Below are positions 1 through 63,789 of a DNA stretch of 64,000 nt, piece by piece (positions within the stretch are counted from its first letter, which is position 1; each line of letters opens with the position of its first letter). The notes under the pieces were generated by a model. That model was not told where the DNA came from. It did no database searches and worked only from the letters and a program-made list of their open reading frames with translations. Both the position numbers and the translations under genes were made by a program. Origin of the DNA: Candidatus Vecturithrix granuli (GTDB lineage Bacteria > Moduliflexota > Moduliflexia > Moduliflexales > Moduliflexaceae); assembly GCA_000739535.1 (NCBI GenBank), contig DF820472.1, positions 1 to 64,000 of the forward strand, written 5' to 3'.

Positions 1-60
1 TAGCGCGAAACTCCAGTTTCGCGGCTATCAACGATGCGCGAAACTGGAGTTTCGCGCTAC
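1..60. repeat. Paired palindromic leader repeat, copy A1
   Basis: Two GCGCGAAACTCCAGTTTCGC-type palindromes lie in inverted orientation about 12 nt apart, so the whole 60 bp can form two hairpins or one long stem. It is followed at once by ACATTTTCATAGGAG and the aldo/keto reductase start codon. Related copies lie at 9579-9640, 26768-26793, 55207-55269 and 63766-63789, all directly before start codons. Confidence 0.9.
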
Positions 61-81
61 ATTTTCATAGGAGAATTGAAC

Positions 82-987
82 ATGAAGTACCGACGTTTAG
101 GCAATACAGAACTTCAAGCTTCGGTCATTGGCATTGGCACATGGCAGTTTGGGGGTGAATGGGGCCATGATTTTTCACAAAAGGAAGCTAACGCTATTTT
201 CGACGCTGCCCGGGAAGCGCAAATAAATCTAATCGATACGGCCGAATGTTACGGTGACCATCTTTCTGAACAACTGGTGGGAGAAGCCATCCAATGCGAC
301 CGTGATCGCTGGATTGTTGCCACCAAATTCGGGCATCGTTTTTACAGCTTTAATAAGCGCGATTGGGATCTCAGTCCTGAAGGGGTGCAGCAGCAGCTCG
401 AAGCTTCGCTGCGAGCCTTACAAACCGATGTGATTGATTTGTATCAGTTCCATTCTGGTTCGAATCAAGCTTTTGACAATGATGCACTCTGGACCATGCT
501 GGATAAACAAAAACAGGCCGGGAAAATTCGTTTTTTAGGAATCTCGGTTTCCGCCTCACAAGCAGAAACTAACGTCTATCAGACCGCACGGGCGACGCAG
601 GTTGGGGCCAACGTGATACAGATCGTGTATAACCGGCTGCAACGCACACCGGAAGAGAGCGTATTTCCATTGTGTGAACAGCAACATTTAGGTGTATTGG
701 CGCGCGTGCCGCTGGCAAGCGGTTTGTTGAGCGGAAAATATGCCAAAGGCGTGACGTTTCCGTCAAACGACATTCGTTCCCAGCAAAACGAAGAACAACT
801 TCGGAAAAAACTGGAAGAGGTCGAACGCATCCAACGCGAAGAAGTTCCCGCAGGAACGCCAATGGCAACCTGGGCGTTAGCCTGGTGTTTGAAGCATCCT
901 GTGGTGACAAGCGTAATCCCCGGGTGCAAAACGCCAGAACAACTGCGTCAAAATGCAGCAGCGGCTGAGCTTGCTGGAAACGATTAA
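82..987 (+). CDS. Aldo/keto reductase family oxidoreductase
   Basis: NAD(P)H-dependent reductase of the AKR TIM-barrel fold, about 301 aa and cytoplasmic, presumably acting on a carbonyl compound that cannot be named. The family tetrad is visible: Asp and Tyr in NLIDTAECYGD, Lys in IVATKFG and His in DLYQFHSG. The C-terminal SVIPGCKTPEQLRQN matches the usual cofactor-phosphate loop (SVIPG). The frame opens at 34, but ATG 82 is chosen because AGGAG precedes it by 9 nt; the upstream part is translated palindrome. It stands alone and its leader consists of repeat A1, which may affect expression. AKRs of this type are close to general stress or sugar-linked oxidoreductases. Confidence 0.9.
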   Translation: MKYRRLGNTELQASVIGIGTWQFGGEWGHDFSQKEANAIFDAAREAQINLIDTAECYGDHLSEQLVGEAIQCDRDRWIVATKFGHRFYSFNKRDWDLSPEGVQQQLEASLRALQTDVIDLYQFHSGSNQAFDNDALWTMLDKQKQAGKIRFLGISVSASQAETNVYQTARATQVGANVIQIVYNRLQRTPEESVFPLCEQQHLGVLARVPLASGLLSGKYAKGVTFPSNDIRSQQNEEQLRKKLEEVERIQREEVPAGTPMATWALAWCLKHPVVTSVIPGCKTPEQLRQNAAAAELAGND

Positions 988-9403: not shown

Positions 9404-9578
9404 CAAAATTCAAGATACGACCGATAAGGTAACAGATGGTACACAAAGGTTACTGTTGATGTCAATTGTTAACAGAAGCTACTCATGCGTTTTGGCAAAT
9501 GCGCCAGAGTGTATGCAAATTCTATTTTCAAGGGAGTTGTCATGAGCTGATGCTCACCCGGCACAATGAACATCAGAT

Positions 9579-9640
9579 GTACCGCGAAACTCCAGTTTCG
9601 CGGTTGTCAAAGAATGCGCGAAACTGGAGTTTCGCGGTAC
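9579..9640. repeat. Paired palindromic leader repeat, copy A2
   Basis: The same double palindrome as copy A1 (GTACCGCGAAACTCC ... GCGCGAAACTGGAG), ending GGTAC and followed by ATTTTCAGAGGAGG and ATG 9661. The 175 bp before it (9404-9578) shows no gene. Confidence 0.9.
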
Positions 9641-9660
9641 ATTTTCAGAGGAGGTCAATT

Positions 9661-9771
9661 ATGAAAGCGTTCAGGCGTATTCTCGAAGTGGGGTCGATCC
9701 TCAGGCAGAAGCCAGAAGTTAGTAACAATGTATTGACCAATGCGATCAAATTCTCTAAGAAGCTGTTTTAA
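9661..9771 (+). pseudogene. Histidine kinase scrap cut by MITE copy 2
   Basis: ATG 9661 has a strong AGGAGG site, giving MKAFRRILEVGSILRQ. After about 20 residues the frame reads NNVLTNAIKFS, the N-box of a histidine kinase, and the MITE begins directly behind it. A gene start and a kinase core seem joined by an internal deletion, then truncated by the element. The 36-aa product is unlikely to function. Confidence 0.6.
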
Positions 9772-9883
9772 AAGTTTGCAGGTGAGGAGTGCGAAAGCTC
9801 TGCTTTCGCTGTCAAAGCAGAGCTTTGACACTCCTGTTCACCTCTCTCGAAATGCCCGTTGCATGGACTTTTAAAACAGCTTC
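9759..9883. mobile_element. 125-bp MITE, copy 2 (IS5-like ends)
   Basis: It appears identical to copy 1, with the same 17-bp terminal inverted repeats and flanking TAA at 9756-9758 and 9884-9886. Identity of two copies 5.9 kb apart indicates recent movement by a transposase elsewhere in the genome. Confidence 0.9.
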
Positions 9884-9923
9884 TAAGAAACTTAATCGTT
9901 CCATTCACATGAAGGAGGGGAAA

Positions 9924-10823
9924 ATGAAACAATACGTGAAAGCGGCGGTATTGATGACGTTCTGTGTAGTGGCCGGTATCCATGCGCTGCCGATTTGGGC
10001 GGCTGCGCCAGAAGAACTTTTAGTTGTACATACCCGTTCTTTACGGGGGACCTCATCAAACTATGACGAGACCAAAGAATACAAATACCAACTATTGCAA
10101 TTGATCTTGGAAAAGACTGAAAAGACCGATGGCCCTTTTAAGATTGAAGTACCAAAACAAGAGCTTCCACAGGCCAGGGATATTGAGTTGTTAAAGCAAA
10201 GCTATTTTGATGTGCTCTTAACAATGACCTCGAAAGAGCGTGAGCAAGAACTTCATCCCATCCGAATCCCAACGAACAAAGGACTGTACGGCTATCGCCT
10301 CGCGATTATCAATGAAAGTGATCAGCCGAAATTTTCAGCCATCCGAACGCTATCAGATTTTCAAACGTTGTGGGCCGGTCAAAACGAGAGCTGGCCGGAT
10401 ACGCAAATCCTCCGTGCCAATGGTTTCAACGTGGTCGGAACTTCAGGGTATAATGAACTCTTCACCATGTTAAAAGAACGGCGCTTTGATTTTTTCCCCA
10501 GGGGCGTTCACGAACCATGGAAAGAGCTGGCTGACGTGAAAATTCCCGGGCTGGTCGTGGAAACAGATTTGGTAATACACTATCCGGCCCCCGGCTATAT
10601 TTTTACCAACAAAGACAACCTAAAACTGGCTGACCGGCTTGAGCGTGGGTTCAGAATGGCGATTGACGACGGTTCTTTCGATCGGTTTTTTTATAATCAT
10701 CCTGAGATTAAAAATGTTTTGGAACGCGCGAATCTGAAAAATAGGAGGATCTTCGAACTGACCAACCCGTTGTTACCTGAAGAAACGCCATTAGATGATA
10801 AAAGATTGTGGTATACGCCATAA
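9924..10823 (+). CDS. Periplasmic substrate-binding protein (sensor partner)
   Basis: Exported binding protein of 299 aa. MKQYVKAAVLMTFCVVAGIHALPIWAAA is a Sec signal peptide; the mature part resembles bacterial extracellular family-3-type binding proteins (SYFDVLLTMTSKEREQEL, LKERRFDFFPRGVHEPW). ATG 9924 is chosen for GGAGGGG seven or so nt upstream; the longer frame starts inside the MITE. No transporter subunits are near, while a membrane hybrid kinase follows, so it probably delivers a ligand signal to that kinase. The ligand is unknown. Confidence 0.8.
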   Translation: MKQYVKAAVLMTFCVVAGIHALPIWAAAPEELLVVHTRSLRGTSSNYDETKEYKYQLLQLILEKTEKTDGPFKIEVPKQELPQARDIELLKQSYFDVLLTMTSKEREQELHPIRIPTNKGLYGYRLAIINESDQPKFSAIRTLSDFQTLWAGQNESWPDTQILRANGFNVVGTSGYNELFTMLKERRFDFFPRGVHEPWKELADVKIPGLVVETDLVIHYPAPGYIFTNKDNLKLADRLERGFRMAIDDGSFDRFFYNHPEIKNVLERANLKNRRIFELTNPLLPEETPLDDKRLWYTP

Positions 10824-26767: not shown

Positions 26768-26793
26768 TGCGTGAAACTGGAGTTTCACGTTAC
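26768..26793. repeat. Palindromic leader repeat, single copy A3
   Basis: GCGTGAAACTGGAGTTTCACG, one half of the paired repeat, followed by TTACATTTCACGGAGAAG and ATG 26812. Compensating changes (T and A in the outer stem) keep the hairpin while altering the sequence. Confidence 0.8.
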
Positions 26794-26811
26794 ATTTCAC
26801 GGAGAAGCAAT

Positions 26812-26955
26812 ATGGGACTCGTTAAATTTCTCTTCGGCTTGTTTCTGCTGCTGCTTACGCTGGCGGCGTGGCCGCTCGTGTTGGTTGTGTTCATCGTCTG
26901 AGGGATCTTCAAGGGCTTGATGATGGTCGGCATGGATAAGGATTTTGAGCCGTGA
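26812..26955 (+). CDS. Small membrane protein, possibly 48 codons with internal TGA
   Basis: ATG 26812, after GGAG, opens MGLVKFLFGLFLLLLTLAAW and continues VLVVFIV to a TGA at 26899-26901. This is a single membrane helix of 29 aa. The frame goes on after TGA with GIFKGLMMVGMDKDFEP and stops at 26953. The continuation is amphipathic and protein-like, so the TGA may be a recent nonsense change at a Trp codon. Function unknown; it sits between the helicase and an antitoxin gene. Confidence 0.45.
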
Positions 26956-55187: not shown

Positions 55188-55206
55188 GTGTCCCTCCTGT
55201 GAAAAT

Positions 55207-55269
55207 GTAGCGCGAAACTTCAGTTTCGCGCACCATTAATACGCCCGCGAAACTTCAGTTTCGCGGTAC
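55207..55269. repeat. Paired palindromic leader repeat, copy A4
   Basis: GTAGCGCGAAACTTCAGTTTCGCG and CGCGAAACTTCAGTTTCGCGGTAC. On the minus strand it ends CTACATTTTCACAGGAGGG before ATG 55187, the same layout as A1 and A2. Confidence 0.9.
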
Positions 55270-55318
55270 ATCTGGTTTTCATTGCGTCGAGTGAGCGTCC
55301 GCTCATGACAACTTCTTT

Positions 55319-55395
55319 GAAACTACAGGAATTGTATATAAGAAAGAATGAAGAAGGAGATTCTATTCTTTCCTATATGCGATTCCTGTAGTTTC
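55319..55395. repeat. Large palindrome, 31-bp arms
   Basis: GAAACTACAGGAATTGTATA...AGAAAGAAT (55319-55349) pairs with ATTCTTTCCT...TTCCTGTAGTTTC (55365-55395) with few mismatches and a 15-nt loop. GTGAGCGTCCGCTCATGA and GGTAAGCGCACGCTCATGA motifs flank it (55291 and 55405). Confidence 0.85.
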
Positions 55396-55598
55396 ATCCT
55401 ACCGGGTAAGCGCACGCTCATGATAGCCCCCATGAATTTTGTTCCTGGTGTGTAAACGTTGACTTCCTCGGTGTGTACGTCTTATCCTCCTTTCAAGATC
55501 GAGTATATGATTTTAAGCTAACACGCTAAAACATATCTTTCTCTGGTGAAACAGAGGTTTATGAAAATAGGTCTTTGTGAACTCGCTCGTCATAACAG

Positions 55599-63748: not shown

Positions 63749-63765
63749 GACCTTCTCTCTTCAAT

Positions 63766-63789
63766 GTAGAGCGAAATTGTATTTCGCTC
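63766..63789. repeat. Palindromic leader repeat, single copy A5
   Basis: GAGCGAAATTGTATTTCGCTC hairpin; on the minus strand it reads CTACATTGAAGAGAGAAGG before ATG 63748. Stem sequence differs but layout is conserved. Confidence 0.75.

Follow-up and report, generated by a model that had tools for sequence, protein, structure and literature searches.

Palindromic repeats in the genome of the uncultured, filamentous Candidatus Vecturithrix granuli UASB270 (phylum KSB3) are strongly tied to start codons, follow the orientation of the gene and carry a Shine-Dalgarno (SD) leader of their own. We read them as probably being non-autonomous mobile 5' untranslated region (UTR) cassettes, which insert 3' of a gene's SD and carry a replacement SD. 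A mobile 5'-UTR with a ribosome-binding leader had originally been predicted from positions 1-64,000 of contig C12 (64,000 nucleotides, hereafter the window). Position, orientation, the carried leader, tandem units, unrelated left flanks and absence from relatives all agree with that prediction, and the observation behind it is real and stronger than was then stated.

The UASB270 assembly comprises 21 scaffolds and 8,384,694 bp, with an N50 of 597,372 (PMC4312070, Table 1). It was compared with three other genomes of the phylum. Position statistics were drawn from about one-third of the genome, mostly as long contiguous stretches chosen regardless of gene position, in which genes were called with a home-made caller based on codon usage. 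The first part of this sample, 2.45 Mb, was used for cluster positions and the total, 2.85 Mb, for leaders, doublets and empty sites. Runs of N (assembly gaps) or contig ends lie inside repeat arrays at C10:50262-50441, C21:544490-544720, C21:1129660 and window position 1, and copy number and array length are therefore probably underestimated.

Repeat copies in the window and across the genome

All five palindromes with leaders that had been reported in the window were found at their places, before the start codons at 82, 9661, 26812, 55187 and 63748 (Table 1); palindrome matches in the window numbered 7, compared with 0.43 expected. The copies at 82, 9661 and 55187 have the exact leader TACATTTTCAnAGGAG; those at 26812 and 63748 are diverged, and in them the leader has decayed. 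Three of the five are inverted hairpin doublets rather than single palindromes, and the copies at 9661 and 55187 stand inside longer units. The start codons at 82, 55187 and 63748 belong to the genes named in Table 1; the open reading frames (ORFs) at 9661 (36 aa) and 26812 (29 aa) are very short. Since position 1 of the window is C12:1, the edge of the contig truncates the copy at 1-82. A 344-aa ORF (9789-10823) begins 18 nt after the short ORF at 9661-9771, and the two may be a frameshifted or split gene.

Table 1. Repeat units and their parts in the window (contig C12, positions 1-64,000)
Feature	Coordinates	Strand	Remarks
Hairpin doublet (REPIN-like core), copy 1	1..61	+	hairpins 5-22 and 38-55; left end lost at contig edge
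Carried leader TACATTTTCATAGGAG	58..73	+	8 nt before ATG 82, aldo/keto reductase gene
T-type unit without doublet, upstream	9479..9536	+	GCGTTTTGGCAAATGC hairpin and ATTCTATTTTCAAGGGAG
A module (unit left end)	9537..9577	+	TTGTC-ATGAGCTGATGCTCACCCGGCACAATGAACATCAGA
Hairpin doublet (REPIN-like core)	9578..9641	+	TGTACCGCG...CGCGGTACA; predicted hairpin of ~25 bp
Carried leader TACATTTTCAGAGGAG	9638..9653	+	7 nt before ATG 9661, 36-codon ORF
Diverged single hairpin GTGAAACTGGAGTTTCAC and leader TACATTTCACGGAG	26771..26804	+	before ATG 26812, 29-codon ORF; stem change C-G to T-A, compensated
Other-type unit, upstream	55312..55426	-	A module, CTACAGGAAT...ATTCCTGTAG inverted repeat and TTTCAAAGAAG
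A module TTGTC-ATGAGCGGACGCTCACTCGACGCAATGAAAACCAGA	55271..55311	-	left end of unit before 55187
Hairpin doublet, loop variant CTGAAG	55206..55270	-	copy before 55187
Carried leader TACATTTTCACAGGAG	55194..55209	-	6 nt before ATG 55187, solute-binding protein gene
Diverged single hairpin GAGCGAAATACAATTTCGCTC (GAGCGAAAT..ATTTCGCTC) and leader TACATTGAAGAGAGAAGG	63751..63789	-	before ATG 63748, 1384-aa TPR/ATPase-like protein

Genome-wide, the hairpin was found at 466 places, compared with 6 for the reversed pattern, and strict doublets numbered 148 in UASB270 and 0 in 58 other genomes. The leader TACATTTTCAnAGGAG, with one mismatch or fewer, occurred 220 times, compared with 0 and 1 for the reversed pattern, and exact ATTTTCAnAGGAG occurred 167 times in UASB270, compared with 3, 7 and 4 times in the three relatives. 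There were no copies of the element in these three genomes, an exact-pattern scan of other genome contigs gave no match, and none was found in viral contigs. Genes without the hairpin have only the AGGAG core in common, whereas genes with the hairpin share (C)TACATTTTCAnAGGAG. This restriction of the leader to hairpin genes, together with the counts, indicates that the leader is part of the repeat and does not reflect the host's general SD usage. Among 102 focal leaders in 2.85 Mb, 61 stood before a called start and at least 13 before another unit. The other 28 include several that are plainly further units or uncalled starts; up to about one-quarter of focal leaders are followed by no called gene and no recognised unit, which counts against the cassette model. 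Any AGGAG in the sample stands before a start in 13% of cases.

The position of the repeats was equally constrained. Of 98 focal clusters in 2.45 Mb, 86 were intergenic, and in 50 of these the edge facing the gene lay 21-29 nt ahead of a called start, compared with 6.2% of random intergenic positions. With start calling that gave no weight to the SD, 40 of 82 clusters lay 15-32 nt before a start (5.8% expected). Two of the 86 intergenic clusters lay between convergent genes. The sister hairpin family R111 (GCGAAAGCAGAGCTTTCGC, with a RAYT at locus L111) was placed like random intergenic DNA, with 5 of 52 copies near starts and 12 of 52 in convergent gaps. R111 thus serves as an internal control, which excludes that the start-codon bias is shared by hairpins in general or created by the gene caller. 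Over the one-third of the genome sampled, copies were not placed at random but were strongly tied to start codons, and the leader proved common well beyond the five copies in the window.

These results bear on the view that the repeats are ordinary REPINs, moved by a RAYT without targeting, and that the survivors are the insertions that left a working SD. The doublet with GTAG or GTAC feet and the presence of RAYT genes, one of them flanked by sister REPs, would fit such an origin. It is hard to reconcile with the scattered intergenic placement of R111 and its share of convergent gaps relative to the focal family, with the two parts that the unit has outside the REPIN (the conserved left module and its own SD), or with the unit types that lack any REPIN and also end at SDs. 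We consider this origin improbable.

Composition of the unit

Read with breaks after each leader, the arrays resolve into a repeating unit of about 116-118 bp. Its order is TTGTC (or CTATC or TTAAC), ATGAGCnnnnGCTCACCCGGCACA, ATGAAAAT, a doublet bounded by TGTA and TACA, and TTTTCAnAGGAG; in blocks, a T-rich pentamer with a small hairpin and ATGAAAAT is followed by a REPIN-like inverted hairpin pair and then by ATTTTCAnAGGAG. Directly after TTTTCAnAGGAG comes either the next TTGTC-ATGAGC or the gene's spacer and start codon. The units stand in head-to-tail arrays, and their boundaries are exact.

The 2.85-Mb sample contained 84 oriented doublets. Almost all of 73 had TGTAC or TGTAG as their left foot, GTAC being commoner than GTAG, in a search whose pattern itself asked for TGTA-like ends with mismatches allowed. 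In about 8 of 73 doublets (e.g. C10:48613, C20:532609 and C20:648298), the spacer between the two hairpins was inverted with the leader orientation unchanged, as if the doublet core could flip.

The core of the unit is exchangeable. Among 83 left modules, it was the focal doublet in 46, a CTACAAGGAT..ATCCTTGTAG inverted repeat in 19, a GGACA-type hairpin in 6 and the AGCGTTTAC type in 2. Some doublets have no left module, which counts against the cassette model. A variant scaffold with a GTTTTGGCAAAC hairpin is also present without any insert, as ATGAAAATTTTATTTTCAnGGGAG. In our reading, the unit at gene starts is a small two-hairpin scaffold that ends in an SD, and the REP-like doublets ride in its second hairpin. 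A composite at C18:401480-401725 (L173), in which left modules stand inverted at both ends around the CTACAAGGAT repeat, may represent an ancestral symmetrical form of the unit; it falls outside the simple unit and counts against the cassette model.

The left boundary and candidate transposases

Insertion 3' of the native SD predicts that the first unit on the left follows unrelated DNA that ends in an SD-like sequence, with no gene starting there. An SD-like motif was found at the boundary of 65 of the 83 left modules. Where the left flank was unrelated DNA, AGGAG or a close variant stood at the border in 14 of 21 cases, compared with 3.6% by chance (p ~5e-16), in a test whose profile was seeded with modules picked for having an SD but itself omits the SD. 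At the same loci, the left motif varies (AAGAG, AGGAT, AGAAG) and the right one is AGGAG preceded by TTTTCA; as the two differ within loci, the right SD appears to be carried by the unit. A classical target-site duplication was rejected on the same comparison. With the unit taken out, the joined flanks read as an ordinary SD at an ordinary spacing, such as AAAGGAG and GGAAACACC-ATG at C18:28346. Likewise, the array before 9661 adjoins AACAGAAG, which together with GTCAATT-ATG would, as we read the sequence, restore an SD-like sequence. A search through paralogous flanks in the 2.85-Mb sample, with output dominated by other repeats, yielded no element-free paralogue, and this lack of an empty site counts against the cassette model.

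Boundaries at an AGGAG common to the units, tandem arrays and module mosaics might also arise if leaders spread from SD to SD by gene conversion or short-homology recombination between 5' UTRs, with no transposase involved. The flanks of first units are dissimilar beyond the SD, which leaves too little for homologous recombination, and we regard this route as very improbable.

We favor insertion of a mobile cassette. A unit made of the T-rich pentamer, ATGAGCnnnnGCTCACCCGGCACA and ATGAAAAT, an exchangeable REPIN-like doublet and then ATTTTCAnAGGAG would insert one way round, immediately 3' of an AGGAG-like sequence, in practice the gene's own SD. The AGGAG at its right end would leave the gene with an SD at the right distance, so that the insertion would be tolerated, and re-insertion beside the AGGAG of a resident copy would produce head-to-tail arrays. 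In the mRNA, the doublet would fold into a hairpin of about 25 bp and lie directly before an exposed SD. A circular form of an isolated unit would have the junction AGGAG-TTGTCATGAGC. Actual transposition, a target preference for AGGAG and tolerance as the reason for retention are what we infer from the standing copies.

The left hairpin lies about 6 nt and the doublet about 8 nt from the unit borders. These near-terminal hairpins, the fixed target side and the absence of a matching duplication point to an HUH/Y1 transposase as a candidate enzyme. IS200/IS605 elements lack terminal inverted repeats, leave their target unduplicated and use hairpins at both ends to insert 3' of specific tetra- or pentanucleotides (PMC7290912). 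The insertion geometry of the unit is alike, insertion 3' of a fixed oligonucleotide being judged here from standing copies. The guide-sequence logic is not visible in the unit: the foot of the left hairpin holds no CTCC-type guide complementary to AGGAG, unlike what IS200/IS605 targeting leads one to expect. Among the 12 Y1_Tnp loci in the genome, read by eye, none had the A/T module or the leader as its ends, which also weighs against the cassette model, and no focal REP was found within ~1.5 kb on each side of these loci in an assembly that breaks at these repeats. One RAYT (L113) is flanked by TGTACCGCGAACCTCCCGGTTCGCGG REPs, which are sister to the focal REP and have the same architecture with another loop.

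The genome seems rich in REP/RAYT systems. At L111:1300-2200 (C18 ~825,500-826,400), a RAYT-like gene has on its flanks numerous inverted pairs of GCGAAAGCTCTGCTTTCGC hairpins (CGGAGTGCGAAAGC...), which represent a second dispersed family in the genome, without start-codon bias. Further Y1_Tnp (RAYT-like) genes at L103, L104, L105 and L107 lie by short palindromic repeats that belong to other families (CCCGTAGGGAC, CAGCCCCGCAGGGGC, CCGCCCTGAAAGGGCGG and CCCGCCGCATAGGGCGGG). The loci L102, L106, L108 and L112 represent an IS200-type family with the end hairpins CCCCCGGCTTTGCCGGGG and GCCTCCGGTTCTACCGGAGG, of which some copies are stop-broken or truncated.

Predicted RNA structure and related elements

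A different explanation is that the hairpin is a regulatory RNA that was recruited to many genes as a regulon, and that it is bound by a protein, a small RNA or a ligand, or melted by heat. The fixed distance from the start codon is consistent with this, as is the strong fold, since the whole doublet is predicted to fold into a single ~25-bp hairpin (fold z -5.9 and -7.8). A GGA loop in most proximal hairpins fits as well. The compensating stem changes that had been described are real and were seen at each of the nine stem pairs that were counted. REP-type DNA elements would be expected to be self-complementary too, and these changes are therefore no proof of a role in RNA. In about one-third of doublets, one loop is not the exact reverse complement of the other.

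Structure prediction did not uphold the suggestion of an RNA thermometer. For 66 units and 120 control genes, the predicted probability that the SD is unpaired was 0.49 versus 0.41 at 37 °C (p 0.009) and 0.45 versus 0.35 at 15 °C, so that the SD of the units is predicted to be a little more accessible than that of ordinary genes at both temperatures, with little change between them. For the proposed pairing between the SD and the distal CTCC, the predicted probability was 0.000 in 66 of 66 units, because the CTCC is locked in the doublet hairpin. No match to PF02599 was found in the UASB270 genome, in which control searches did give matches; as no csrA gene was found, a CsrA-regulated leader is not supported. 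There was likewise no Rfam match within the window. A leader peptide or attenuator was rejected as well: the upstream ORF (uORF) from the ATG of the module is not conserved, and 10 of 26 uORFs stop after 13 codons or fewer. Relative to the gene, the uORF occupies each of the three frames about equally often.

Twenty sampled downstream genes had no common function and included those for transport, chemotaxis, hydrolases and oxidoreductases, among others. A regulon is further disfavored by the exchange of the core for unrelated hairpins and by the inverted spacers, and we think the regulatory explanation unlikely. Judged from the predicted structures, the effect of the unit at the RNA level is not obviously regulatory; the hairpin before an exposed SD may alter mRNA stability or processing, with no sign of a dedicated regulon.

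As a mobile cassette, the unit resembles several known systems. Like REPINs and their RAYTs (Bertels and Rainey 2011, PMC3116915; E. coli BIME; TnpAREP, PMC8266576), it contains an inverted REP pair with a short spacer that forms one long hairpin, has a GTAG-like foot and occurs in hundreds of copies in a genome with RAYT genes, where a sister REP flanks a RAYT. REPINs have been described as random in extragenic space (PMC3116915). The units, in contrast, keep to start codons, include an SD leader as well as a left module that is conserved, and place several REP-like families on one scaffold. Like PATEs of Haloquadratum (PMC3119063), the units are short, have no transposase gene, make no target duplication and have a fixed boundary oligonucleotide and palindromes near both ends, in which small repeats are nested; the REP-like doublets in the scaffold parallel the SMR-A elements nested in PATE palindromes (PMC3119063). 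They differ from PATEs in that the boundary oligonucleotide is the SD and that no IS605-type element with the unit ends was found. Since the SD borders both ends of the unit, the gene keeps a ribosome site.

The best reading is that the cassette is related in build to REPINs and PATEs and is unlike both in its tie to the SD. In a limited search of open papers, no description of an SD-targeting mobile element was found. The NEMIS/Correia elements of Neisseria are also small mobile inverted repeats able to alter the expression of neighbors (PMC2649163). They differ in being described with promoters and RNase III sites rather than an SD, and they are not known to stand at a fixed distance from start codons. 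The TAACTGA repeats of marine Beggiatoaceae (MacGregor 2015, PMC4679880) likewise occur genome-wide in a large filamentous bacterium, in intergenic positions directly before the starts of unrelated genes. These differ in being direct repeats of a heptamer and in lying across the expected ribosome site, with an SD in ~10% of such regions (PMC4679880). It is possible, though somewhat doubtful, that the units represent an element class that targets the SD itself, with insertion 3' of AGGAG on the coding strand, brings a new SD at its far end and offers a shared scaffold to several REPIN families.

Mobile repeats normally threaten or ignore translation starts. If the proposed mechanism is true, use of the SD as a landing pad and its return by the unit would explain how hundreds of insertions come to stand in the leaders of ordinary genes. 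A long RNA hairpin would thereby have been placed before many genes at once, and 5' untranslated regions would have been rewritten by mobile DNA without loss of translation. The units would also constitute a natural target-specific insertion system, and the role of REPIN-like hairpins in 5' rather than 3' untranslated regions becomes testable.
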